Of a stretch of DNA of 9,013 nucleotides, positions 1-9,013 are shown piece after piece (the stretch's first letter is position 1; every line of letters begins with the position of its first letter). This DNA comes from Xanthobacteraceae bacterium (GTDB lineage Bacteria; Pseudomonadota; Alphaproteobacteria; Rhizobiales; Xanthobacteraceae), in NCBI GenBank assembly GCA_030043175.1, contig JASHYD010000082.1, forward strand, positions 1 through 9,013. Direction: 5' to 3'. Made by a program: the position numbers and the translations under genes. The notes beneath the pieces were generated by a model. It worked only from the letters and a program-made list of their open reading frames with translations, was not told the DNA's origin and did not search any database.

Positions 1-232
1 TGATGATGGTCTCCGGCTTGAGGATTTTCATCGCGTCCAACACCTCGGGAGCGAGGTGATAGAGCACCATAAACACCAGGCGATCGATATTGCTGACGGC
101 AACCCGCTTGGGCGCCCTACGCATCAGCACATTGAGCTGATGGCGAAGGACGAGAATTTCGGTTTGCAACGCTGCGCGCGGCCGCAACAGCCCCGTCGCT
201 GCGTACCAGATGAACTTGAGGAGATCACCCAT
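1..232 (-). CDS. Transposase/integrase-like protein, N-terminal part (runs off window)
   Basis: The gene is read on the minus strand from ATG at 232 and stays open for 77 codons to the edge of the window. It begins MGDLLKFIWYAATGLLRPRA, followed by EILVLRHQLNVLMRRAPKR, then NIDRLVFMVLYHLAPEVLDA and MKILKPETII. This pattern (leading hydrophobic helix, ExLxLRHQLNVLRR, DRLxF, LAPxVLDALKIxKPETxIRW) is the N-terminus of a family of integrase-core (DDE) transposase-like proteins common in Rhizobiales. The catalytic domain would lie beyond base 1 and cannot be seen, so I cannot say whether the element is intact. The start lacks a strong Shine-Dalgarno and the frame stays open a little upstream, so the exact start is uncertain. 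No terminal inverted repeat could be located. Family recognition is from memory of the conserved sequence, not a search. Confidence 0.75.
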   Translation of the reverse strand, partial: MGDLLKFIWYAATGLLRPRAALQTEILVLRHQLNVLMRRAPKRVAVSNIDRLVFMVLYHLAPEVLDAMKILKPETII

Positions 233-838
233 CGCGGTGATTATCAACCGATTCGCCAGTGATCGACAGCCGTTTTGAGTTTACGGTAGGGACAGGGATC
301 GTAGAACCGGCAAATCGCGCTCATCAACCTGCGCAACATCCACCGTGCTGGCGCGGGCATGACCTCAAGAATGGGACGCGCGACAGCTGTGCAGAGGGTC
401 GCACGTGAGAGTGGCTTTCAACGCAAGCCTGGCGATTCGTCGTGAAAGCGCTAGTGAAATCTCTGCCGGCGGAAGGCGCCGCACGATAGTGCGATCAGTG
501 GAGTGCGCGAATAATTCTGAGCAAGCGGCACGTGTTCGGGTCGGGGTTACGACGATCAAGATTGAAGACCCATACACTTCGGCGTCAAGATCACCAATAC
601 GCTCTCGCAGCAGCTCATGCCACCCACCGAATGGCCGATCGCCAAAACGACATGGTGCGCTCCCGTATCGGAGGCTTGGCGCGTCACGGACAGAACCGCT
701 CAACGGGCCCCTATATCGGGCCAACAGCCACCCATAAAGGCTGGCTCCGGGACAGGAGTCTCGAAGCCGGCCCTCGCGCCTCTTTTCTAGAAAACTGCTC
801 CTCAAAGCCGGACGAGGCCGCTTTCGCACAAACGAACC
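233..838. other. About 600 bases without a confident gene; possibly decayed coding sequence
   Basis: Open frames exist here but none gives a recognisable protein. On the minus strand, stretches such as GAHHVVLAIGHSVGG (around 625-670, one frame) and HELLRERIGDLDAEVYGSS (around 550-620, next frame) look protein-like and would join across a frame change. This suggests a decayed gene transcribed in the same direction as the upstream MCDYSLHG gene. A 39-codon minus-strand frame from about 360 to 241, ending in RFYDPCPYRKLKTAVDHWRIG-like sequence, is also open but unrecognised. I see no RNA gene, terminator or clear inverted repeat. Confidence 0.35.
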
Positions 839-1264
839 TTAAAGCGCCGGAACAAGCTGCTCGCTTTCGGTCGCTTCCTTTGGCGCAAGTTGCTTCGGTG
901 GCAATTGGAGAACAGTCACGTGCTGCCCTTGATGGAGATCGGTCAGCAAAACGATCGTGCCATTCACGAATTCCAGAGCATCGTGGTGTGTCGTCGGTTG
1001 GTCTTTGTTAATCTGCTGGAAGCGGGCGACCGTCCCGCCGAGCTTGCCGAACCGGGAATTCGGTAGCAGCCAGCCCAGCAGGCTATGCCGCCGAGCTTCC
1101 GCCTTGAAGGCGAGCTCAGTGCCGGGCAGTAGACACACTGCAACTTTCGGCTTTCCGGCTGCGCAAAAGCCACGGGTACTGGTGCCTGGGAATTTCGTTG
1201 TGATGAGATGATCTCCAACCTCCGCAGGCCGCGACGCGATACCGTGCAAGCTGTAGTCGCACAT
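839..1264 (-). CDS. Conserved small protein of unknown function (MCDYSLHG family), under a fluoride riboswitch
   Basis: 141 residues, start MCDYSLHGIASRPAEVGD. The start ATG at 1264 is preceded by the strong Shine-Dalgarno AGAAGGAG at a suitable distance. I recognise the family only as a conserved hypothetical protein seen in Rhizobiales; no function is known to me. Visible conserved-looking blocks are the N-terminal CDYSLHG, a VCLLPGTELAF block (about residues 43-53), ARFQQIN (80-86) and THHDALEFVNG (92-102). There is no signal peptide or membrane helix, so it is probably cytoplasmic. C2, C34 and C44 and the HH pair at 93-94 could bind metal, but this is speculation. It is the first gene downstream of the 1538-1588 riboswitch and its terminator, on the same strand, after a leader of about 220 bases, so fluoride-controlled transcription is the likely regulation. 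The C-terminal 20 residues are low in conservation-like pattern. Confidence 0.75.
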   Translation of the reverse strand: MCDYSLHGIASRPAEVGDHLITTKFPGTSTRGFCAAGKPKVAVCLLPGTELAFKAEARRHSLLGWLLPNSRFGKLGGTVARFQQINKDQPTTHHDALEFVNGTIVLLTDLHQGQHVTVLQLPPKQLAPKEATESEQLVPAL

Positions 1265-1485
1265 TGATGGCGCTCCTTCTCTCTGTTAGAAGCGGTGTTC
1301 CTCTTCTTTGCGGTCGCGTTCCGACTCGAAGTAGCCCGGTTGCGATCGCGAGTTGCAGCGGATATCGCAGCAGGGAGGTGCAGGTCGTACATCACGCCAA
1401 ACACCTCGTCAGCGGGCGCGGAACGATTGGACCACGAAGTCTTCGTTCCGGGAGCGGAGCAGCTTCGCAGGCTGCATCACTCAAC

Positions 1486-1508
1486 AAAAAACCCGCCTGC
1501 GGCGGGTT
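1486..1508 (-). terminator. Intrinsic terminator, expression platform of the 1538-1588 riboswitch
   Basis: Read on the minus strand, an 8-bp perfect stem AACCCGCC / GGCGGGTT closes a three-base loop and runs into a T-tract (six T at 1491-1486, two of them in the stem). It lies between the riboswitch and the 1264 gene, the position expected of a riboswitch-controlled terminator. The segment GGTGGGA (plus-strand 1519-1525) can pair either with the aptamer 3' end TCCTACC (1538-1544) or, as GGTGGG, with the terminator's 5' arm CCCGCC (1501-1506). This is a plausible anti-antiterminator/antiterminator switch that allows read-through when fluoride is bound. Confidence 0.8.
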
Positions 1509-1537
1509 CCATGCATGGTCCCACCACGATCGTCCGC

Positions 1538-1588
1538 GGTAGGAGTCATCAGCCTTTCGGCAGCGACGGGCGACTCCATGCCCTGACC
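1538..1588 (-). promoter_or_regulatory. Fluoride riboswitch (crcB motif), divergent core
   Basis: On the minus strand the P1 stem GGGC/GCCC encloses AUGGAGUC. A short linker follows, then the stem GCC-GAAA-GGC and the 3' hallmark GGCUGAUGACUCCUACC. The loop GGAGUC and 3' GACUCC give a 6-bp pseudoknot, as in known fluoride aptamers. It differs from the other three copies because the linker reads GUCGCU where the consensus and its siblings have AAC before the second stem, so ligand binding may be altered. It is followed by a terminator and the MCDYSLHG gene. Confidence 0.85.
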
Positions 1589-1589
1589 G

Positions 1590-1619
1590 TTGATACCAAC
1601 TTCTAGCCATGGCCGTCAA
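1590..1619 (-). promoter_or_regulatory. Sigma70-type promoter for the riboswitch-MCDYSLHG transcript
   Basis: On the minus strand a -35 box TTGACG (plus 1614-1619) is followed by 18 bases and a -10-like TATCAA (plus 1590-1595). Transcription would begin at the 5' edge of the fluoride aptamer, the expected arrangement. The boxes are only partial matches to consensus. Confidence 0.5.
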
Positions 1620-2077
1620 GGGACACCTTCTAATGATAGTTGGCTTTGATTCAGCGCATTGGACCTTTCGTTGAGCGCGGTAGCGGCACAGCAAAAAGCA
1701 GGTGACGTTCCGAGACGAGAACATAGTCTAGGCAACGCTCTCGTACCATTCTCGAGCGGCATAACCATTCGCCGTGTTCCATGACAGCGCGAGTCGAGGA
1801 TATCGAAGGCGTCGCCGATCCTGAGCGCATTGCCAGGCGTTCGTGAGGACTCTCTTCTGCGGAAGAGCGCTGAAGCGGCCCTGTTCAAGTGGCGGAGCTG
1901 GGGGACCAGGCAGAGGGCAGACACCGCTGTCGCGATTCGCGTCAGATCTGCCGTTCAAAGCCACGCAACTCCGCCACATGCTGCGCGTATGGTCGGACGG
2001 CAACAACGTCGCCGTCGCTTCGAGAATTGTCACGATAGGCAACGGAGTTGTCGCGTCAACAACCGATCACACATGCG
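1620..2077. other. Stretch without a recognisable gene
   Basis: Between the rsbX-like pseudogene stop and the promoter at 1590-1619 there are open frames on both strands, but none shows a family signature, a good Shine-Dalgarno or coherent codon use. On the minus strand protein-like fragments switch frame (for example SDGDVVAVRPYAQHVAELRG at about 1950-2015, then a stop). This fits decayed sequence continuing the pseudogene block to its right. I see no terminator, RNA gene or repeat. Confidence 0.35.
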
Positions 2078-2763
2078 CTACCACTTGCCGACCAGGACGG
2101 TGGCATCGTCTCGCCGGCGGCTGAAATCCCGGTACAGTACGGCTGCGATGAGGGTCGGATCCGCGGCCACCAAATTCGGATAACGATCAAGCGTCCAACG
2201 CGTGCTAACTCCATCCGAACATAATATGACGAGGCCGCCCTCGAAAGGGTATTGGAAGACTGTTTTCGCACGTTATATCCTACAGTTCCGGGCATAGATA
2301 CCATGCGCCGGAGTTCATTTCTGGAGACAAGCACGCCGGCGACGTTGCCGATTCCTCCGAAGGTAACTTGCGGCAAATGAGGGTCGTAGCGTGCCATCGA
2401 AACCGCCGCGCAGCGTGTCCATCGCAATCCGCCGTGGATGTAGTCGATAAGGGTCGAGACCTGATGGCCACGAAACTGTCGAAACAGTCGCACAGCGTCC
2501 GCGAGACAGGCTTGCACATTTGCCATACCACGCCCCCTATCAAGGGCGAGGATTTGGATGCCGTCCCCGTCTTCATCGGGGGCAAAGCCCACGAGCAATT
2601 CACCCCCGCGGGCGTGCTTTACCAAGTTGGTGGCAAGCTCGGTCGCCACAAGGGCCGCCCGTCCCGCGTCAACCTCATTGAAGCCCTGCTGCCTCGCAAT
2701 GGCCACCACGTCCCGCCGCGCCTCCGCGACTTGACTTCCATCGTTGACGGCCACGGAGATCAT
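2078..2763 (-). pseudogene. RsbT-like ATPase + RsbX/SpoIIE-like phosphatase fusion, deleted and frameshifted
   Basis: Intact relatives pair an anti-sigma-type histidine-kinase-like ATPase domain (RsbT/RsbW fold) with a PP2C-type phosphatase domain related to RsbX/SpoIIE, and act in stressosome-type partner switching. Read from ATG 2763, the N-terminus shows ATELATNLVKHA (N-box with E and N) and ALDRGRGMANVQACLAD (G1 box). It then jumps directly at about 2497 into AVRLFRQFRGHQVSTLID, part of the phosphatase domain. The ATPase G2 box and the phosphatase N-terminus, probably 100 or more residues, are missing. After TVGYNVRKQ (about 2260) the frame must shift to continue as FQYPFEGGLVILCSDGVSTR, then WTLDRYPNLVAADPTLIAAV and YRDFSRRRDDATVLVGKW, stopping at TAG 2080-2078. 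The ATG overlaps the upstream rsbT-like stop (TGATG), an arrangement that suggests former translational coupling. Both lesions make an active product unlikely. Confidence 0.8.
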
Positions 2764-3175
2764 CACGATTTCCAACGCACGACGGTCACCTTGGTGCCAA
2801 TTCCCGCTTTTGCCTCGATCGAAAAGTCATTTTATCAGCCGTCGCGCTCCGCCAAGCCCGAGGCCGAGCCCGATCCCGTTGTGAAACCATCCTTCAGAGC
2901 CGCCTGAATGTCTGGAATACCGGGAGCTTGGCCTTCAAAGGCCAGTCGCACACCGCGTCGACCATCGCCCTCGATCACTTCCGGGCAAACTTTACCCTCT
3001 TCGGCACAATCCGCGACATAGCGCGCAAGCTCGCTTGCAGCGGCTATGACCTTGGTCTGATCGACAAGGCTCAATCCGGCCGCCCCCATGAGCGTGCGGG
3101 TCTGCCGGCCCATAACGTCGCTGAGGCAATGTGGGTGACGAGCACCTGACTGACTCCAATCAGGAAGGCATTGCC
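2763..3175 (-). pseudogene. rsbT: RsbT-like anti-sigma/switch kinase, multiple frameshifts
   Basis: RsbT is a serine kinase/switch protein of the GHKL ATPase fold that works with RsbS/RsbR stressosomes. The readable core, about 2875-3120 on the minus strand, is QTRTLMGAAGLSLVDQTKV, then IAAASELARYVADCAEEGKV, then LAFEGQAPGIPDIQAALKDG and FTT. The rest needs frame changes: upstream VLVTHIASA joins DVMGRQ near 3120; GIGLGLGLGGARRL (the glycine-rich G2 loop) lies in another frame near 2875; and NDFSIEAKAGIGTKVTVVRW lies in a third frame after about 2835, ending in TGA 2765-2763. Two functional residues are also changed: the N-box reads ELARY where the family has ELARN, and the G1 box reads EGQAPGIPD where EDRGPGIPD is usual. 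Several frameshifts plus these substitutions make this a pseudogene. No rsbS or rsbR is seen upstream; the Nudix gene lies there instead. The 5' boundary is approximate. Confidence 0.8.
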
Positions 3176-3275
3176 TTACGCCACCATCAAGACGCTCGCG
3201 CGAGGCTACGCGCGGAAATCGCAGTAGCTGCTGCGAACGCCTCAGTTCTCTTGGTCCTTCCCGGCGCACCGGCAT

Positions 3276-3998
3276 CTAGTCCCGAAAGATCGCGGCGAAC
3301 TCTCCAACAACTTTGAGGTAGAGCTGGCGCTTGAAAGAAGCAGCAAGCTCGCTAAGCTCCTCCAGCGGAACCCACCGCCAGGCGTTGAACTCGGGATGTT
3401 CACCGGCGAGATCGATATCGCGATCCGGGCCTTTGAAGAGCATCACGAACCATTTTTGCCGCTGGCCTTTCCAGCGTCCGCCCCACGCCGTGCGCGCGAG
3501 CTCCTGAGGCAAGTCGTAATAGAGCCAACCTCGGCTTTCCGCGATGATCTCTGCGTTGGCCGTCCCGATCTCCTCTTTCAACTCACGGAGCACCGCCTGG
3601 CGAGGCGTTTCCCCCGCATCGATGCCGCCCTGCGGCATCTGCCATGCCTCGTGCGGCACATCTGCGCGGCGGCCGATGAATACTTCACCCCGATCGTTAA
3701 GCAGCATGATGCCAACGCCGGGCCGATAATCATCGGTTGATGGCTCCTGCTGTTGGCTCGTCTCCGCCGTCTCTGAATTGATTCGCAGTTGCACCCTGAT
3801 TACGTCAAACATCTCCAGCATCTCACGTTCGTCGACGCCGTCCGCGCGCATGAGGAGACGGATCTCCGGCTCGCCCAGAAGCATCACCAAGTCGGGCTCG
3901 GCTGTGCCAGGACTCGTTGCGGGTTTGCGCCGAGGTCTGGCGCAGCTCGTTGTGTTGGTCGAATCGCTCGCCGCGGACTTTGCTCTTGGTTTTTTCAT
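3276..3998 (-). CDS. RppH-like Nudix hydrolase with an extra N-terminal segment, under a fluoride riboswitch
   Basis: 240 residues from ATG 3998, chosen because AAAGGAG sits 7 bases upstream; the frame is open further upstream but that would cross the riboswitch. From residue 91 it matches RNA pyrophosphohydrolases: YRPGVGIMLLNDRGEVFIGR, then AWQMPQGGIDAGE. The Nudix box G124-x5-E130-x7-R138-E139-L-K-E142-E143-I-G145 is complete, with Glu residues expected to bind Mg. WGGRWKGQRQKWF and EFNAWRWV are typical of RppH, which removes pyrophosphate from RNA 5' ends or from dinucleoside polyphosphates. Usual RppH length is about 160 residues; the first 90 here are extra: a basic, Ser/Thr-rich stretch, then LLGEPEIRLLMRADGVDE and MLEMFDVIRVQLR, which resembles a small conserved rhizobial helical segment. 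It may be an RppH paralogue rather than the housekeeping copy. Translation is probably controlled by the riboswitch at 4041-4090. The decayed rsbT-like genes follow on the same strand. Confidence 0.9.
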   Translation of the reverse strand: MKKPRAKSAASDSTNTTSCARPRRKPATSPGTAEPDLVMLLGEPEIRLLMRADGVDEREMLEMFDVIRVQLRINSETAETSQQQEPSTDDYRPGVGIMLLNDRGEVFIGRRADVPHEAWQMPQGGIDAGETPRQAVLRELKEEIGTANAEIIAESRGWLYYDLPQELARTAWGGRWKGQRQKWFVMLFKGPDRDIDLAGEHPEFNAWRWVPLEELSELAASFKRQLYLKVVGEFAAIFRD

Positions 3999-4004
3999 GC
4001 CGAT

Positions 4005-4040
4005 GCTCCTTTCGTTACAGCTGCGCACAGCAGCGCCGGC
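4005..4040 (-). promoter_or_regulatory. Riboswitch expression platform: sequesterable ribosome binding site
   Basis: On the minus strand the aptamer's 3' end CUCCU is followed by a small hairpin (CUGC/GCAG) and then AAAGGAG, the Shine-Dalgarno of the Nudix gene. CUCCU can pair perfectly with AGGAG. The same CUCC is the pseudoknot strand of the fluoride aptamer, so fluoride binding would free the ribosome binding site and allow translation. No poly-T terminator is present in this leader, in line with translational control. The pairing is read from sequence; the mechanism is inference. Confidence 0.6.
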
Positions 4041-4090
4041 GTAGGAGTCATCAGCCTCGCGGCGTTCTAGGGGGTACTCCATCCCCTCTG
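4041..4090 (-). promoter_or_regulatory. Fluoride riboswitch (crcB motif)
   Basis: On the minus strand: P1 GGGG-AUGGAGUA-CCCC, linker CUAGAAC, stem GCC-GCGA-GGC, then GGCUGAUGACUCCUAC. The P1 loop GGAGU pairs with 3' ACUCC. This is an excellent match to the fluoride aptamer consensus, including the AAC linker. It lies in the 121-base gap between the GTPase stop (4120) and the Nudix start (3998). A weak possible promoter, TTGAGC (plus 4118-4123) with CTAAAA/TAAAAA (plus 4093-4099), overlaps the GTPase stop, so the Nudix gene may have its own promoter as well as read-through. Confidence 0.92.
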
Positions 4091-4119
4091 TTTTTTTAGG
4101 AGGGCGATTCCCTGTCAGC

Positions 4120-6102
4120 TCAACATTTTGCCCTCGTGTCGGTGCACAGCACAGGCCCTTCAGCGCCGCCCCAGATACTCCCATCGCGGTGCGCTGCCCC
4201 AGCGATCTCGGTGCGATAGCCGACTAACGCCGTTTTGAGCGCCGCGACACGGGCGATCTCAGATTCAACTTCAAAAGCTCTAGCGCGGCGGCGTTCCAAT
4301 GTTGCGAGGATCACGGCCTTTGTGGCGCCCATTGCATCGTCGAGCCGCTCCTCGAACTGTGATCTTGCCTTCCGAAAAGTGTCGTTCAGGCTTTGGAGAA
4401 TTGCCCAATGTAGGCTGCCAACATTACGGCGCGCAAGCTCGTTCGTCTGCCTGATCAGGCGCGTGCGCAGGCGCGCGCGACGGTGCTCCCAACGCAGCAG
4501 GCGGTCGAGGACCCTGCTTGGGTCCGGAATCAATGTCTCTTGAACATGCTGAGTCACCCAATAAGGATCGTTGGTCAATTCGAACGAGCTGTCCTCGGAA
4601 CTCCGGTAGAACTCGGTCTCGAAGATGTTGGCTGCAGCTCTTCGTACGTCATTGATCAATTCTTGGAGCCGCCGCTGGTGAGTTGAAAACGCAGAATTCG
4701 CCGCCGCGGCGAAAGAATCGATGAATCGCTCGCGAGCTGCATCAAAGACGGTCTCAAGCGCAGCCCCAAGCACGCTTTGCACCCCCTCGATCCACCTTGG
4801 TGAGCAAGCTTCAGGAAGTTCGCGATCAATGACCTTCGACAATTCGGCGCACACGTCCTCATAAAGGCTGTCTGCTCGGGACCTCAAGTCCGCGAGCAAG
4901 CGACGTTGCTCGCCGGCCAGGAGATCGTCGACTGTCCCTCTCTGTCCCTCGATGGAGCTCAGCGCCTGCTCGAATTGTTGCGACCTCGAAGACAACTCGC
5001 CTAGGGGCATTTCAAGCGTCTTCATCCGTAGATCGAGTGTTGCCGCTGTTTCGGCGAGAATGTCTTCGGCCTTCTTTGAAATGGCCCGCGTCAGTGTTTC
5101 GGTCTTATCGGCGGCCAAATACTGGCTCAGATAGTCCTCAATTGCGCGAAGGCCGCTGGAGTCGATGTCATTCCGATTGCCGCGACGCTTGCCATCCAAC
5201 CCATCTCGCGCCGAGACGCTGAAGATAATCGAGCCCGAAGACCAAAGACCGTTCTGTTTCAATACATCGCGTAAGAAATCAATGAGGCGCGCCCGCTCCT
5301 CAACGCGTACATAGTCAGCTTTATTCATTATGAACAGAATCTTGGCAACCTTCGAGTCGAGGCGGCGCAGATAGTCGAGTTCGGTTTCGGTGATCGGCGG
5401 GTCGGGCGATACGACAAACACCGCCGCATCGCATTCCGCGAGAACCCGGAGAGCCGCTTCGGTATTGTGGCGAAAGGTGGACCCTACGCCAGGGGTGTCA
5501 ATCAACACCGTATTGTCGGCAAGTACAGGTGCGGGATAAAAAACCTCGACGCGATCGACGCGAAGCGCATTTTTCGGGTTTGCCTCTTCTGCAACGAAGC
5601 GAAATAGAAATTCCCTGATCGCGTCAGGATTATCTGCCGACAACTCCTGCGCGGGCCGACCATCGGCGAAACGAACACACACAGACGGCGACGAGCGCCA
5701 CGAAATAAAAATCGGCACCGCCGTCAGCGGTACGACGGCCATGGGCAGGAGCGGAGCACCGAGCAGTGCGTTGATGAAGGTGCTCTTGCCGCGCTTGAAT
5801 TGACCAAGCACGGCCAACTGAAGTCGACTGTGCCGAAGACGTCCGCGCAGCGAGTCAAATCGGACAATGAGCGACGCGTTCTCCCTAGCCGCATCTCTAA
5901 GGGTGGCGGCTGCGTGATCCAAATACGCAGAGAGGCAGAGGGAGCGGGCGCGCTTGATCGCCCCGTCGGCATCGTCTATCGCCACTTCCGCGCAACGGCC
6001 CGTCTTGACAAACTCTGTCAATGCGACCGGTCGCTCGTTGCGTTGCGGATTGAGGAGGGCGTCCTGGGCCGAACCCTGGCCCCCTTCGACAGAGGTGCCC
6101 AT
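4120..6102 (-). CDS. Dynamin-like GTPase, under a fluoride riboswitch
   Basis: 660 residues from ATG 6102, with GAGGCAAGGA just upstream. A longer frame from TTG 6204 is rejected because it would begin inside the riboswitch terminator's T-tract; GTG 6135 is possible. GTPase motifs: G1 GQFKRGKST (residues 100-108), likely G2 Thr in PLTAVP (about 127), G3 DTPG (202-205), G4 NKAD (260-263), G5 SARD (297-300). This order, with GQFKRGKSTxINALLG and IDTPGVGS, is that of bacterial dynamin-like/large GTPases that act on membranes. The remaining roughly 350 residues are charged, probably largely helical, without a clear membrane span, as expected for a stalk or assembly region. Bacterial dynamins are linked to membrane fusion, repair or stress protection; the role here is unknown. 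It is the first gene after the riboswitch at 6233-6283 and ends 30 bases before the next one. No base-composition oddity is obvious. Confidence 0.9.
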   Translation of the reverse strand: MGTSVEGGQGSAQDALLNPQRNERPVALTEFVKTGRCAEVAIDDADGAIKRARSLCLSAYLDHAAATLRDAARENASLIVRFDSLRGRLRHSRLQLAVLGQFKRGKSTFINALLGAPLLPMAVVPLTAVPIFISWRSSPSVCVRFADGRPAQELSADNPDAIREFLFRFVAEEANPKNALRVDRVEVFYPAPVLADNTVLIDTPGVGSTFRHNTEAALRVLAECDAAVFVVSPDPPITETELDYLRRLDSKVAKILFIMNKADYVRVEERARLIDFLRDVLKQNGLWSSGSIIFSVSARDGLDGKRRGNRNDIDSSGLRAIEDYLSQYLAADKTETLTRAISKKAEDILAETAATLDLRMKTLEMPLGELSSRSQQFEQALSSIEGQRGTVDDLLAGEQRRLLADLRSRADSLYEDVCAELSKVIDRELPEACSPRWIEGVQSVLGAALETVFDAARERFIDSFAAAANSAFSTHQRRLQELINDVRRAAANIFETEFYRSSEDSSFELTNDPYWVTQHVQETLIPDPSRVLDRLLRWEHRRARLRTRLIRQTNELARRNVGSLHWAILQSLNDTFRKARSQFEERLDDAMGATKAVILATLERRRARAFEVESEIARVAALKTALVGYRTEIAGAAHRDGSIWGGAEGPVLCTDTRAKC

Positions 6103-6202
6103 CGATCCTTGCCTCGCTTCGCCTGGCGCCGTCACGTCTATCCGCTCGCTCCTTGGCTTCCTGCCACAGCGCGCGCGTCCGGATTCGGGAGAATGCGGGT
6201 GC

Positions 6203-6221
6203 AAAAACGCCCCGAACCGCC
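6203..6221 (-). terminator. Riboswitch-controlled terminator (3' arm and T-tract) before the GTPase gene
   Basis: On the minus strand GGCGGTTCGGGGC is followed by GTTTTT. This arm is complementary to GCCCCCGTAAACCGCC inside the aptamer (plus 6254-6269): GGCGGTT pairs with AACCGCC and GGGGC with GCCCC. The terminator can therefore form only if the aptamer is unfolded. Fluoride binding should prevent it and allow the GTPase to be transcribed. Pairing is visible in the sequence; the switching logic is inferred from known fluoride riboswitches. Confidence 0.7.
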
Positions 6222-6232
6222 AGATATCACGC

Positions 6233-6283
6233 GGTAGGAGCCATCAGCCTTGCGGCGGTTTACGGGGGCACTCCATCCCCGAC
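6233..6283 (-). promoter_or_regulatory. Fluoride riboswitch (crcB motif)
   Basis: On the minus strand: P1 GGGG-AUGGAGUG-CCCC, linker CGUAAAC, stem GCC-GCAA-GGC, then GGCUGAUGGCUCCUACC. The loop GGAGU pairs with GCUCC (one G-U) as the pseudoknot. A strong consensus match including the UAAAC linker. It heads the dynamin-like GTPase transcript. Confidence 0.93.
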
Positions 6284-6291
6284 GATCGGCA

Positions 6292-6320
6292 AACATAAGC
6301 TTCGGGCGCGGAACACGCAA
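6292..6320 (-). promoter_or_regulatory. Sigma70-type promoter for the riboswitch-GTPase transcript
   Basis: On the minus strand TTGCGT (plus 6315-6320), a 17-base spacer and TATGTT (plus 6292-6297). The predicted start falls at about 6285, immediately before the aptamer, which supports the assignment. Both boxes are 4/6 matches. Confidence 0.55.
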
Positions 6321-6998
6321 GCCGGAGCTGTGCTCGCGCACCAAAATCCAACCATTTTGGGTCTTAAATCGTTCCCGTTAGCGGAATTCAATAGACTGCG
6401 CAGCCACACCTGAGGCACTTCAGAGGGACGGGAGGCGGGCGAGATCGCGCTGGCCGGGACCGTGCAACGCCAAGAAAGCATGGAAGCATAAGGGCTTCAG
6501 AACAACGCGGCGCCACCGCAGGCCAGAAGGGGTTTCAATAGTTCGGCGGTTTGTGGGTGCCGCCTGCAAGGGCATCCGCTTCAACGGTTCGGCCGGAGTA
6601 GCGGACGACATCTGGCAGATGAACCAAACGCAACGTGGCATCGACGAGATTAACCTTCGCATCTGGAGGAAAACGCTTCTTTGCAGGCGACAAACAACGC
6701 TTAGCCCCTCGCTTGCCCGGCGGGTGAGCGCGCGGTTCGGTAAAAGGTGGTCCAGTTTCACAAACACCCAAAAACCGCAACACATTGGCGGAGATGATGA
6801 GGGCTTGTCCGTGGCGAGGTGATCACCTGTCGCAGTGGCCCATTCGTTAACACGCGACTGGCGACCTCGTGGAGGTCACAATCTATCGTCGACCCATTTT
6901 GCACGAGAGAACCGTCGGCCCATATCCGAAGGAGGGATAGTGGGCTCCGCCCCTTCCACCCGCAGCGCGAGCAGGGGCCATATTCTTCGCGACCGCTC
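6321..6998. other. Divergent region without a confident gene
   Basis: About 680 bases between the two divergent riboswitch promoters. The best coding-like stretch is a minus-strand frame, 6783-6535, whose second half reads KRFPPDAKVNLVDATLRLVH and LPDVVRYSGRTVEADALAGG. It has no good start context, I do not recognise it, and it may be the tail of a decayed gene. Two symmetric sites are visible: CCAAAAT-6 bases-ATTTTGG at 6341-6360 and the perfect 12-base palindrome AGGTGATCACCT at 6817-6828. I see no tRNA, rRNA, CRISPR or mobile-element ends here. Confidence 0.35.
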
Positions 6999-7027
6999 TT
7001 GTGCTCAAGGAAACGGACGATTAAATT
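6999..7027 (+). promoter_or_regulatory. Sigma70-type promoter for the plus-strand riboswitch transcript
   Basis: TTGTGC (6999-7004), a 17-base spacer and TAAATT (7022-7027). The predicted start near 7034 coincides with the first bases of the fluoride aptamer, the same geometry as for the minus-strand copies. Confidence 0.55.
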
Positions 7028-7031
7028 TGGT

Positions 7032-7081
7032 GACGGGAAGGAGTCCCCCCGGAACCGCCAAATAGGCTGATGACTCCTGCT
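7032..7081 (+). promoter_or_regulatory. Fluoride riboswitch (crcB motif)
   Basis: P1 GGG...CCC around AAGGAGUC, linker GGAAC, stem GCC-AAAUA-GGC, then GGCUGAUGACUCCUGC. AGGAGUC in the loop can pair with GACUCCU over 7 bp. It differs from consensus by AAGG for AUGG and UGC for UAC at the 3' end. It is the only copy on the plus strand and heads the small CxxC protein and the cyclase/ATPase regulator. Confidence 0.88.
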
Positions 7082-7126
7082 GCTTAGTGGCAACGCAGCG
7101 GGAGAGACTTATCACACTCCGCTGCG
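7074..7126 (+). promoter_or_regulatory. Riboswitch expression platform: two mutually exclusive hairpins
   Basis: CTCCTGCTGC (7074-7083, containing the aptamer's pseudoknot strand) can pair with GCAGCGGGAG (7095-7104) over 10 bp with one G-U. The same middle segment (CGCAGCGG, 7094-7101) can instead pair with CCGCTGCG (7119-7126) over 8 bp, directly before an ATG at 7127. No T-tract follows, so this is not a classic terminator. Which state is on cannot be told from the sequence. Confidence 0.5.
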
Positions 7127-7204
7127 ATGGCAAACACTAACCCGAATGCTCGTAATGGCGCCGGGCGTGTTTGCGTACATGCAATGTTCGCGACGGAGGG
7201 GATA

Positions 7205-7513
7205 GTGAGCGCACAGCACCAAGCTCCCACGGTATCGACGCTGGGGCATTTTCGCCACCGCATTGCCGACGCGGCATCGGCTGAGCACACATTAAAGGCG
7301 AGCAGGATGACGTTAGGGGAGCGCATAGCCCTCTGGCTGCGGGAAGTTCGCGGAGTTTATTGTGCCGATTGCATTGTGAAAGAATTCAAGGGGCCTCGGC
7401 GCCGACAGGTCAATCGCATCACGAATGCGCTTTCAGCGACGAGCAACTTCTACCGCGAGAAAGGCACGTGCAGGCTTTGCGGTGCCGACAGGAAGGTCAT
7501 AGGAGCGGTCTAG
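7205..7513 (+). CDS. Small protein with two CxxC motifs, unknown function
   Basis: Three starts are possible. GTG 7205 (102 residues) is chosen for its strong Shine-Dalgarno GGAGGGG with short spacing. ATG 7127 (128 residues) lies right behind the riboswitch hairpin but has no good ribosome binding site. ATG 7307 (68 residues) would match the core that I recall for related small rhizobial proteins. The core is MTLGERIALWLREVRGVYCA, then DCIVKEFKGPRRRQVNRITN and FYREKGTCRLCGADRKV. The pairs CADC and CRLC probably bind one zinc ion. The segment between them (GPRRRQVNRITNALS) looks like a helix-turn-helix recognition region, so DNA binding is possible but not shown. There is no membrane segment or signal peptide. 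It is the first gene of the plus-strand fluoride riboswitch transcript and is followed after 26 bases by the cyclase/ATPase regulator, suggesting one operon. Confidence 0.65.
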   Translation: MSAQHQAPTVSTLGHFRHRIADAASAEHTLKASRMTLGERIALWLREVRGVYCADCIVKEFKGPRRRQVNRITNALSATSNFYREKGTCRLCGADRKVIGAV

Positions 7514-7539
7514 CACTGCCGCGGGGCAGAAGCGCGTCC

Positions 7540-9013
7540 ATGGAACACCAGGTCCCGTCATGGGTCGAATCGCGCACGCGGCACGCACGCACGGTGCTTT
7601 ACAAATTTCGGTATTGTCCGCGCTGCAAGCGCGAATGGCCAGCCAAACATCCGTCCTGTCCCGAATGCGTCCACTGGCTCGGCGAGCAGCCTCAAGAGCG
7701 GACCGAATATCAGCTCATCCCGACCAATGCTCGTTTCCGGGCGGCCAAGCCAAAACGATACGAGCTGGTCGGCGCGAGCGCGCTGGTTTTACGCGTTGTG
7801 CACGCCCGCCCTCCTGCTGGCAAGGATCTCGTTGAGTCCATGACTATCATCGAGAAGATTCTTGCGGCTATATTTGGCGCCGCGACCTGCGGACTAGCCG
7901 ACCATGGCTGGCTTGCCTGGACCCAGGAAGGATTACGAACAGCCTTTCGTCGCGCATCTGATCTTGAGCGCCAGATAGTCGCTTCGCTGCCGCGACTCGA
8001 ACGCATCTTTGGTCAAGAAACGGACGTTCGTTGGGGCATTTGGATCGATCAGTACATCCTGCCATTCGATCACCGCGGCCATCCGGTGATCACAGGCCCT
8101 ACGGCGCGCGCGATCTTCACATTCGAACCTGACAACATGCTCCTCTCGTCGGAGATTATTTATCGGCATAACTGCCATCGAGAATATTTCATGTGCGCTC
8201 CGCGTCGCTTCCTCGACGGCAGCGAGGAATATCAATATCGCATGATTGGTCACAAACGTCCCTCGGCGTTGGACCACGCCCAAATTGAACTCCGAAGTCC
8301 GTTTGTGGGAAGGAGACATCAGCTCTCGGTCATCGAGCATTGTTGGCAATACGCCCGAAGGGACATGACTTTGGCGATCGTCGCGGGGCCCGGATCCGGT
8401 AAAACGCGCCTGATAAAGGAGTGGTTAGCAAGACATCCGGAACTGCGGGCAATCGCCGCGAATTTCAGCATGTTCGGCGGAGATTGCGAAGACTTTGCCA
8501 GCCAGCTGGCAGAGCTCCCTGCCGATCAGCCTGATCGTCGCAAATTGGTGCAAGCGGTTGTTGATCGTATCCGCAGGGAAAAAATCGACCTCTTGGTGCT
8601 CGACGATATTCACTGGGCGGGGGCTGAAGGGCTCGCCTTTGTTCATGATCTAATAGACGTACACGCTACGACATTTGTTATTCTGGCCTCACGGCCTAGC
8701 GGCCAGCAGGCGTTACACGCTTTGCGACCAGCTGTCGAGCTCACGTTGAAGCCGCTACGAGGATCTCGCGCCGAAGCGTTGGCCATGGGATTGATCAAAG
8801 CCAGAGCGGTCGCGGCCGTGGCTGCGGTGCGCTCCAAAGGTAACCCGCTGTTCATCGAGCAGTTCGCTGCTTGGGCAGCTGAGACAAACTATCAAGGCGA
8901 TGAAACCGGGCCGCGCAACCTGTATCAACTCGTTGCGGCGCGGGTCGAGCATCTATCACACGCGCGTATCGCGGAGATCCAGCAGCGCTTGCGTTGGGGG
9001 CGGTCATGGGAGC
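7540..9013 (+). CDS. Zinc ribbon + degenerate cyclase-like domain + AAA_16-type ATPase, C-terminus beyond window
   Basis: Open from ATG 7540 for 491 codons to the window edge. The N-terminus has a zinc ribbon, CPRC (26-29) and CPEC (40-43). Residues about 80-240 resemble a class III adenylate cyclase homology domain: a SMTIIEKILAAIFG block, then an LPRLERIFGQETDVRWGIWI block, VITGPTARAI and SSEIIYRHN. I do not see the metal-binding aspartates, so it is probably catalytically dead or a sensor. Then comes the ATPase: SPFVGRRHQL (253-262), Walker A GPGSGKTR (283-290), Walker B LLVLDDIHWA (351-360) and KGNPLFIEQ (433-441), all typical of AAA_16/STAND ATPases found in cyclase-ATPase-TPR regulators. 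Such proteins are usually signal-dependent regulators; helical repeats are expected beyond the window. The start has only a weak Shine-Dalgarno (GGGGCAG). It probably shares the transcript of the CxxC gene and hence the fluoride riboswitch. Confidence 0.85.
   Translation, partial: MEHQVPSWVESRTRHARTVLYKFRYCPRCKREWPAKHPSCPECVHWLGEQPQERTEYQLIPTNARFRAAKPKRYELVGASALVLRVVHARPPAGKDLVESMTIIEKILAAIFGAATCGLADHGWLAWTQEGLRTAFRRASDLERQIVASLPRLERIFGQETDVRWGIWIDQYILPFDHRGHPVITGPTARAIFTFEPDNMLLSSEIIYRHNCHREYFMCAPRRFLDGSEEYQYRMIGHKRPSALDHAQIELRSPFVGRRHQLSVIEHCWQYARRDMTLAIVAGPGSGKTRLIKEWLARHPELRAIAANFSMFGGDCEDFASQLAELPADQPDRRKLVQAVVDRIRREKIDLLVLDDIHWAGAEGLAFVHDLIDVHATTFVILASRPSGQQALHALRPAVELTLKPLRGSRAEALAMGLIKARAVAAVAAVRSKGNPLFIEQFAAWAAETNYQGDETGPRNLYQLVAARVEHLSHARIAEIQQRLRWGRSWE

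Follow-up and report, generated by a model that had tools for sequence, protein, structure and literature searches.

Why should four fluoride riboswitches lie within 5.5 kb of bacterial DNA, each ahead of a different gene? The question is raised by contig JASHYD010000082.1 of a Xanthobacteraceae bacterium (GenBank assembly GCA_030043175.1), of which positions 1 to 9,013 (hereafter the window, i.e., the whole 9,013-nt stretch analyzed) had been read, in an original prediction made from the letters alone, as a specialized fluoride-stress island. The response to fluoride is usually described as export of the ion plus replacement of the enzymes that it inhibits, and the fluoride (crcB) riboswitch and its super-regulon were reportedly laid out by Baker et al. 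in 2012. The answer that we consider likely as a whole is a fluoride-response island, in a bacterium related to Hyphomicrobiales, whose units would each be governed by their own ON-switch, with a conserved dynamin-like GTPase perhaps serving the membrane and a Nudix hydrolase perhaps replacing or supplementing a fluoride-sensitive enzyme.

When the entire window was scanned with cmscan against 4227 Rfam families, the fluoride riboswitch family RF01734 was the only one matched at E<=1, and it was matched four times. Three aptamers lie on the minus strand, namely aptamer 1 (1533..1592; 33.6 bits, E 2.3e-6) ahead of the gene of a 141-aa protein, aptamer 2 (4035..4095; 46.4 bits, E 1.5e-10) ahead of a Nudix gene and aptamer 3 (6228..6289; 52.5 bits, E 1.5e-12) ahead of a dynamin gene, while aptamer 4 (7025..7086; 41.8 bits, E 4.7e-9) precedes a plus-strand unit. 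The covariance model thus bears out the four predicted sites, their occurrence in both orientations and the different gene behind each, with aptamers 2, 3 and 4 above the gathering score of 34 bits. The GGAGU loop, the GCC/GGC stem and the GGCUGAUGrCUCCUrC motif, already named in the prediction, are conserved in all four alignments, and the P1 stem of aptamer 1 (GGGC...GCCC) is also seen in aptamers of relatives (L081:15031, L094:300, L093:6048 and L098:113). In an alignment of 45 aptamers, including these four, 98.5% of the cells in P1, P2 and the GGAGU/ACUCC pseudoknot are paired, compared with 92.0% in shuffles, and changes on both sides occur at five of the 12 pairs (two in P1, two in the pseudoknot and one in P2). 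Recent duplication of the aptamers, which the prediction had discounted, is not supported: the four share 70-80% pairwise identity, and the mean identity of aptamers from the same genome (0.739) is close to that of unrelated ones (0.737). We infer that the four predicted riboswitches bind fluoride and induce the genes behind them.

The putative expression platforms, recognizable by sequence and predicted pairing, suggest how a separate fluoride ON-switch would control each transcription unit. When fluoride is absent, the pseudoknot strand (rCUCC...) would pair with downstream sequence instead; with Mg-fluoride present, it would be locked in the aptamer pseudoknot and expression would be on. 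Behind aptamer 3 lies a terminator (6203..6241, minus strand; GCUCCUACCGCG...CGGUUCGGGGC, then UUUUU; hairpin of -15.3 kcal/mol) whose 5' arm begins within the aptamer and is its pseudoknot strand; aptamer and terminator should therefore exclude each other, and without fluoride the strand would lie within the terminator. Behind aptamer 1 (1484..1525, minus strand), an intrinsic terminator (1484-1508; AACCCGCC-GCA-GGCGGGUU plus a U tract; hairpin of -12.9 kcal/mol) overlaps a possible antiterminator (GGUGGG...CCCGCC, 1501-1525, a reading of the sequence with coordinates checked), the CCCGCC of which is the 5' arm of the terminator. The GGUGGGA segment alternatively pairs with the pseudoknot strand in a 10-bp helix (-18.2 kcal/mol), which without fluoride would release the terminator, and this platform could be an aptamer/antiterminator/terminator relay. 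At aptamer 2, the Shine-Dalgarno sequence of the Nudix gene (AGGAG, 4006..4010, minus strand, 7 bases ahead of the ATG at 3998) is complementary to the CUCCU of the pseudoknot strand, and the predicted fold pairs the two; this points to a translational switch in which the strand would sit on the Shine-Dalgarno sequence in the absence of fluoride. Behind aptamer 4, a 10-bp pairing of CUCCUGCUGC with GCAGCGGGAG forms an anti-aptamer hairpin (7074..7104, plus strand; -20.7 kcal/mol, coordinates checked) that would hold the strand when fluoride is missing. Aptamer and pseudoknot are the same as in the known fluoride riboswitch, as far as the accessible parts of the literature describe it, and so would be the predicted competition of the expression platform with the aptamer.

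Competition for the pseudoknot strand was assessed in a set of 151 aptamers from 17 multi-switch genomes, 13 single-switch genomes and the window. In 150 of these sites (one was omitted), the strand pairs with its own downstream DNA at a mean of -17.7 kcal/mol, compared with -14.6 kcal/mol when downstream regions are swapped; 0 of 40 permutations reached the former value, and 45 of the 150 rank in the best 5% for their own downstream pairing. Within the window, only aptamer 4 stands out in the swap test, with 3 of 60 downstream regions doing as well. A terminator follows 44 of the 151 aptamers (17 with the 5' arm inside the aptamer), as opposed to 31 among 383 gene starts used as controls. Little was learned from simply folding the complete dynamin leader (z 1.35), and a generic terminator/promoter scan did no better than shuffles (12 vs 9.3; 1 vs 3.1) and overlooked both platform terminators (those of 1533 and 6228) of the aptamer-directed terminator search.

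The target of riboswitch 3, a dynamin-like GTPase of 660 aa (4120..6102, minus strand; PF00350, E 2.8e-23), shows a linkage to fluoride riboswitches that is conserved far beyond the window. Of 388 relatives of this gene in a scan, the best 80 were kept, so that the counts describe its closest relatives. At least one fluoride riboswitch is present in 70 of these 80 loci, and 59 of the 71 with more than 700 bp of upstream DNA carry a same-strand switch no farther than 1.5 kb away (46 within 500 bp, plus 13 more); the other nine loci have 700 bp or less and stand outside this count. Riboswitches were called at the Rfam gathering score in loci L001-L009 and with a custom model, R1 (E<=0.1), in L010-L080; R1 was built from aptamers including those of the window, whose R1 scores hold by construction. 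Judged by record title, the 59 linked loci and two more whose upstream DNA is short come from about 15 phyla of bacteria (Pseudomonadota, Acidobacteriota, Thermodesulfobacteriota, Bacillota, Riflebacteria, Bipolaricaulota, Planctomycetota, Atribacterota, Verrucomicrobiota, Sumerlaeota, Chloroflexota, Calditrichota, Latescibacterota and Synergistota) and archaea (Methanobacteriota), with names that are provisional because most of these loci come from metagenome-assembled genomes (MAGs). Isolates are represented among the dynamin loci by Rhodopila globiformis DSM 161 (L022) and Moorella sulfitireducens SLA38 (L017).

Selection by similarity was lessened by scanning the whole genomes of 40 dynamin loci. 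Among the 50 strong Dynamin_N matches (>80 bits; 50 of the 58 listed), 26 lie within 600 nt downstream of a same-strand riboswitch, a number that rises to 30 at 1.5 kb and to 38 at 8 kb, the random-gene expectation at 1.5 kb being about 0.0004. Likewise, in the 17 riboswitch-rich genomes the best Dynamin_N matches (the 16 above 40 bits among 65 listed, the other 49 scoring about 30 bits or less) lie downstream of a same-strand riboswitch within 1.5 kb in 13 of 16 cases and within 3.5 kb in 15 of 16. Switch labels also cluster on the dynamin tree, with 5 changes compared with a shuffled mean of 11.4 and 0 of 500 shuffles as low, near-copies and long branches being included. Several switchless dynamins of the same genomes (G788, G793, G790 and G807) sit on very long branches, their exact place being unsure, which suggests that they belong to other dynamin families. 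Within the close family, the loci with upstream DNA but no switch are L040, L057, L064 and L077; the fifth switchless locus, L050, gave no gene for the tree. Families neighboring the dynamin include the Na+/H+ exchanger (19 loci), enolase (16), MutS_V (16), Usp (12), MFS (12), DUF190 (6) and CrcB (5), with one member of each cluster confirmed by Pfam and no gene called in three of the 80 loci. Three of the 120 homologs listed are dynamin-Nudix fusions (P0151, P0175 and P0206), and one more (P0217), in which a dynamin is fused to a piece resembling the AAA protein of the window, could be an assembly artefact. A second, distant dynamin subfamily (PF00350), with a fluoride switch to itself, occurs in several genomes and frequently lies within one and the same island. 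The dynamin thus appears to be a conserved member of the fluoride regulon across phyla, linked to the switch by position and presumably induced by it.

Examples of this second subfamily are L007:16572-18266 (-), L022:3224-4918 (-) and G259:C49:29802 (-). One locus, L006, is labeled a Candidatus Acidiferrales MAG; its dynamin falls inside a Xanthobacteraceae group of the tree, and its contig has five fluoride riboswitches, which reflects either mis-binning or horizontal transfer.

The number of switches is itself exceptional. The expectation that most genomes have few agrees with 391 genomes sampled from the family, in which fluoride riboswitches number none in 190, one in 167, two in 18, three in 3 and four or more in 13, i.e., none or one in 357 of 391. 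More than two were found only in G001 and G538 among 397 genomes of the order, and only in G001 among 398 of the phylum (E<=1e-8); these surveys used strict filters, with 12-13 candidates scored per genome, and their high counts are lower bounds. In contrast with this norm, RF01734 is matched in all of the loci L001-L009 (mostly Xanthobacteraceae and other alphaproteobacterial MAGs; 27 matches in total), the whole genomes of seven of these have 4-20 matches each, and ten further genomes of the family, chosen for high counts, have 3-24. The extreme is G259, with 24 matches, 23 of which (21 above cut-off) lie at 15.6-71.0 kb of one 73,244-bp contig. Such clustering of 4-24 switches in relatives of the locus supports the idea of a specialized island, and the window resembles part of these larger ones. 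All 22 pairs of aptamers less than 400 nt apart (86-303 nt) are divergent, none being tandem or convergent; they come from ten genomes and are partly the same pair in relatives (G003, G004, G005 and G006), hence not 22 independent events. This arrangement fits a short promoter region shared between two switches. Aptamers 3 (6228, -) and 4 (7025, +) of the window are divergent too, yet 735 nt apart. A plasmid origin was sought by tblastn with the dynamin, which matched none of 72,556 plasmid records (E<=1e-20).

What these islands regulate was addressed by clustering the downstream genes, called for 139 of the 151 aptamers (12 had no called target), and naming the clusters by Pfam searches on members; the gene caller was a simple one, 21 of the 139 targets lie more than 500 nt from the aptamer, and second genes of operons are uncounted. 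The most frequent targets are NADH dehydrogenase subunit 1-like proteins (18 sites, 17 genes, in 12 genomes), MutS domain V proteins (14 sites in 13 genomes), CrcB (10 sites in 10 genomes, nine of them single-switch; PF02537 on the G235 member), dynamin (9 sites in 6 genomes, window included), enolase, in some cases fused to Usp (8 sites in 7 genomes), Nudix (6 sites in 6 genomes, window included), MFS (6 sites in 6 genomes) and Na+/H+ exchangers (4 sites in 4 genomes). Lesser ones comprise cyclopropane-fatty-acid-synthase-like, phosphoglycerate-mutase-like, CLC, FtsH, pyrophosphatase, DUF190 and other proteins. Enolase, pyrophosphatase, CLC and MutS-like proteins are familiar from the fluoride response; dynamin, the RppH-like Nudix and FtsH fall outside that familiar set. 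The original prediction had taken the lack of an exporter among the targets to suggest that the island handles damage or signaling. No exporter was indeed found among the eight window frames scanned; the conclusion is nevertheless too narrow, as the island contigs of relatives encode CLC (G259 and G054) and CrcB (G259, G001, G054, G155, G181 and G216), along with Na+/H+ exchangers and fluoride-sensitive enzymes, and CrcB is present in 10 of the 17 multi-switch genomes. Across genomes, aptamers that precede one and the same gene family are on average more alike than the background (0.760 vs 0.737; 0 of 300 label shuffles; 95 sites, 14 clusters), and this likeness is absent from the NADH-dehydrogenase-like (0.730) and dynamin (0.714) clusters, so that the evidence on this point cuts both ways.

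Some further targets were noted in passing. In two genomes the gene that immediately follows a fluoride riboswitch encodes the FtsH protease (L093:3242-5179, -, and L106:14838-16718, +; cluster CL14), identified by Peptidase_M41 in the L093 member. A protein that we take to be NarG-like from the start of its sequence (1214 aa in G089) lies behind riboswitch-like sites of 31-37 bits in L122 (G089:C1:558570 - and 558869 +, a divergent pair) and L127 (G181:C206:47161 +). Tiny hydrophobic proteins of 46-66 aa are encoded by the first gene called behind a fluoride riboswitch in four genomes (L103:3697-3837, G001:C186:10534 (L001), L130 and L139), possibly forming one small membrane protein family.

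What would the dynamin do under fluoride? By its GTPase domain, its motifs and its modeled head with helical neck and trunk, the window protein is a member of the dynamin superfamily. GQFKRGKS, DTPG and NKxD are invariant in 31 aligned sequences, and the AlphaFold2 model (mean predicted local distance difference test score 78.7, predicted TM score 0.66) places a GTPase head on long helical bundles. The best fold matches are IniA and BDLP with Foldseek (IniA: TM 0.50/0.56, E 1.7e-21) and mitofusins, IniA and BDLP with VIA-align; unlike these proteins, to which it is 16-21% identical, the window dynamin has no transmembrane peak and is predicted to be riboswitch-controlled. A dynamin induced by stress would remodel or seal the inner membrane under hydrogen fluoride (HF) or fluoride stress. 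Such membrane maintenance is favored because NaF raises the psp (inner-membrane-stress) genes in E. coli (PMC10100675, in the part of the report available), and we hold the membrane role as a tentative assignment with a little less than an even chance. That fluoride would not only induce the protein but also gate it directly, a GDP-fluorometallate (MgF3- or AlF4-) locking an assembled, membrane-active state, is a long shot; if true, bacteria and archaea would share a conserved membrane-sealing arm switched at two levels by the same ion.

Several observations weigh against the picture of a switch-governed island with a conserved membrane dynamin. Aptamer 1 scores 0.4 bits below the gathering score, and the swap test is not distinctive for 6228 (21 of 60), 4035 (52 of 60) and 1533 (23 of 60). 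By the criterion used, 107 of the 151 aptamer sites have no terminator. Of the 71 dynamin loci with sufficient upstream DNA, seven have a riboswitch elsewhere only and five have none; 12 of the 50 strong dynamins have no riboswitch within 8 kb, three of the 40 dynamin-bearing genomes have no fluoride riboswitch at all, and eight of the 17 riboswitch-rich genomes have no strong dynamin. As for a membrane role, the protein has no transmembrane peak, and its tip (residues about 500-530) is of low confidence in the model. The marginal score of aptamer 1 would also suit the view that chance or aptamer decay accounts for the four sites, which is very hard to reconcile with E-values of 1.5e-12 to 2.3e-6, an aptamer structure conserved with compensatory changes, and downstream pairing that fits its own aptamer across the whole set of sites.

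Two other readings accept the switches and concern the targets. Dynamin and Nudix could be Mg-dependent phosphoryl-transfer enzymes that fluoride blocks (GDP with AlF4- or MgF3-) and that are overproduced to compensate, with no membrane damage involved. This is rather unlikely, though it draws on a regulon common to dynamin, Nudix, enolase and pyrophosphatase, on GDP-AlF4 structures of the dynamin family among the fold matches (3w6p and 6djq) and on E. cloacae FRM, said in the accessible part of its description to make additional copies of fluoride-inhibited enzymes (PMC5533749); however, 15 of the 16 best Dynamin_N matches in the 17 genomes lie within 3.5 kb downstream of a same-strand riboswitch, and therefore few of these genomes have a second, housekeeping dynamin in evidence for which a replacement would be needed. 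Improbable in our view is that a portable switch picks up any gene, dynamin, Nudix and AAA proteins being passengers that serve general stress or phage defense instead of fluoride resistance. Neighboring genes do differ from island to island, the PADLOC models LeoA (7e-20) and LeoBC (8e-15) match part of the dynamin, of which the window shows a single gene, a PADLOC candidate-defense model matches the Nudix protein (1.5e-8), and aptamers ahead of called dynamins are not especially alike (0.714 vs the 0.737 background). Against this stand the switch linkage that one dynamin family shows across about 15 phyla, the clustering of switch labels on its tree and the company that these dynamins keep with known fluoride genes.

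With the fluoride island preferred as the reading, parts of it have precedent. The riboswitch class, several targets and the idea of a fluoride island are already known: described targets include enolase, pyrophosphatase, the Na+/H+ antiporter, exporters, formate hydrogenlyase and DNA repair (PMC7266159, PMC11139923 and PMC8913905, each as far as available), and the island GI3 of Enterobacter cloacae FRM has, in the accessible part of its report, one fluoride riboswitch ahead of a six-gene operon with pyrophosphatase, Usp, enolase, phosphoglycerate mutase and CrcB (PMC5533749). GI3 and, probably, the islands described here are fluoride-resistance islands under fluoride riboswitch control, with genes of these kinds in common; whereas GI3, as available, has one switch, most units here have their own, often in divergent pairs and sometimes with a dynamin. 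Compared with the known super-regulon, there are four switches in 5.5 kb in the window and 23 on a contig of a relative, and dynamin, RppH-like Nudix, FtsH and AAA proteins are targets that the accessible accounts of that regulon do not name. Methylobacterium extorquens DM4, reportedly with at least 10 fluoride riboswitches, likewise has many switches in one alphaproteobacterial genome, while in relatives examined here the counts rise to 20 and 24, grouped in islands. The account of DM4, in the part available, speaks only of 'extensive riboswitch-based regulation' (PMC11139923).

Apparently new within the literature searched are the scale of the islands, the pairing of divergent switches and, most of all, the link between dynamin and switch. 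Dynamin and the fluoride riboswitch were not found together in a search outside which the gene list of Baker et al. lies, where a dynamin could be mentioned; titles and abstract beginnings on fluoride with bacterial dynamins gave nothing on fluoride tolerance; and divergent fluoride riboswitch pairs were not found described in a search that missed most subscription papers. That a switch-linked dynamin family recurs in about 15 phyla suggests that the fluoride response has a third, membrane-centered arm. To our knowledge, the physiological cues of bacterial dynamins are mostly unclear, and the linkage would give them a defined ion as inducer. With as many as 23 sites that would each sense fluoride separately, the islands would be an extreme of repeated sensing of one ligand in one locus, and they offer organofluorine biotechnology candidate genes for fluoride tolerance.

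The set that would be induced in the window comprises, beside the dynamin-like GTPase, the RppH-like Nudix hydrolase, the AAA ATPase unit and the 141-aa small protein. The Nudix hydrolase, target of riboswitch 2, has 240 aa (3276..3998, minus strand; PF00293, E 1.6e-25), with about 90 residues preceding the Nudix domain; its ATG at 3998 is a manual reading, the gene caller having chosen 3884. The family score makes it RppH-type, NCBIfam NF001938 (RNA pyrophosphohydrolase) giving 202.5 bits against a cut-off of 116 on the longer open frame 3276-4184, with the remaining RppH models matched only in part; RNA 5'-pyrophosphohydrolase activity is a prediction. The enzyme would replace or supplement a fluoride-sensitive Mg-dependent pyrophosphohydrolase. 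The drop of rppH with NaF in E. coli (PMC10100675, in the part available) makes a switch-driven RppH-like enzyme sensible, and proves nothing.

The plus-strand unit behind aptamer 4 begins with an open frame for a putative 128-aa Cys-rich protein (CxxC...CxxC; 7127..7513, +), of uncertain start and missed by the gene caller, which matched no Pfam family above cut-off. It is followed by an AAA/STAND-type ATPase cut by the window end (7540..9013, +; PF13401 6.4e-9, PF13191 1.4e-8), which carries an N-terminal CxxC...CxxC stretch; its ATG at 7540 is likewise a manual reading (7840 in the gene caller), and in G235 a homolog comes first among the genes called downstream of a fluoride switch (cluster CL19). 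The 141-aa target of riboswitch 1 (MCDYSLHG..., 839..1264, minus strand) has at least 7993 homologs, matched no Pfam or NCBIfam family, and is represented in G001 and G003 by a homolog that is the first gene called after a fluoride switch (cluster CL10).

Two minor features complete the minus strand. A cut-off frame at 2-247 (-), with no Pfam match, presumably resembles the N-terminus of an insertion sequence integrase. Within 2056-3275 (-), a frame for a HATPase_c_2 anti-sigma-type kinase (PF13581, 1.8e-8) lies behind an apparently broken one that matched no Pfam family and that we take to be RsbT-like, and this region is possibly a decayed stress-signaling module downstream of the Nudix gene.

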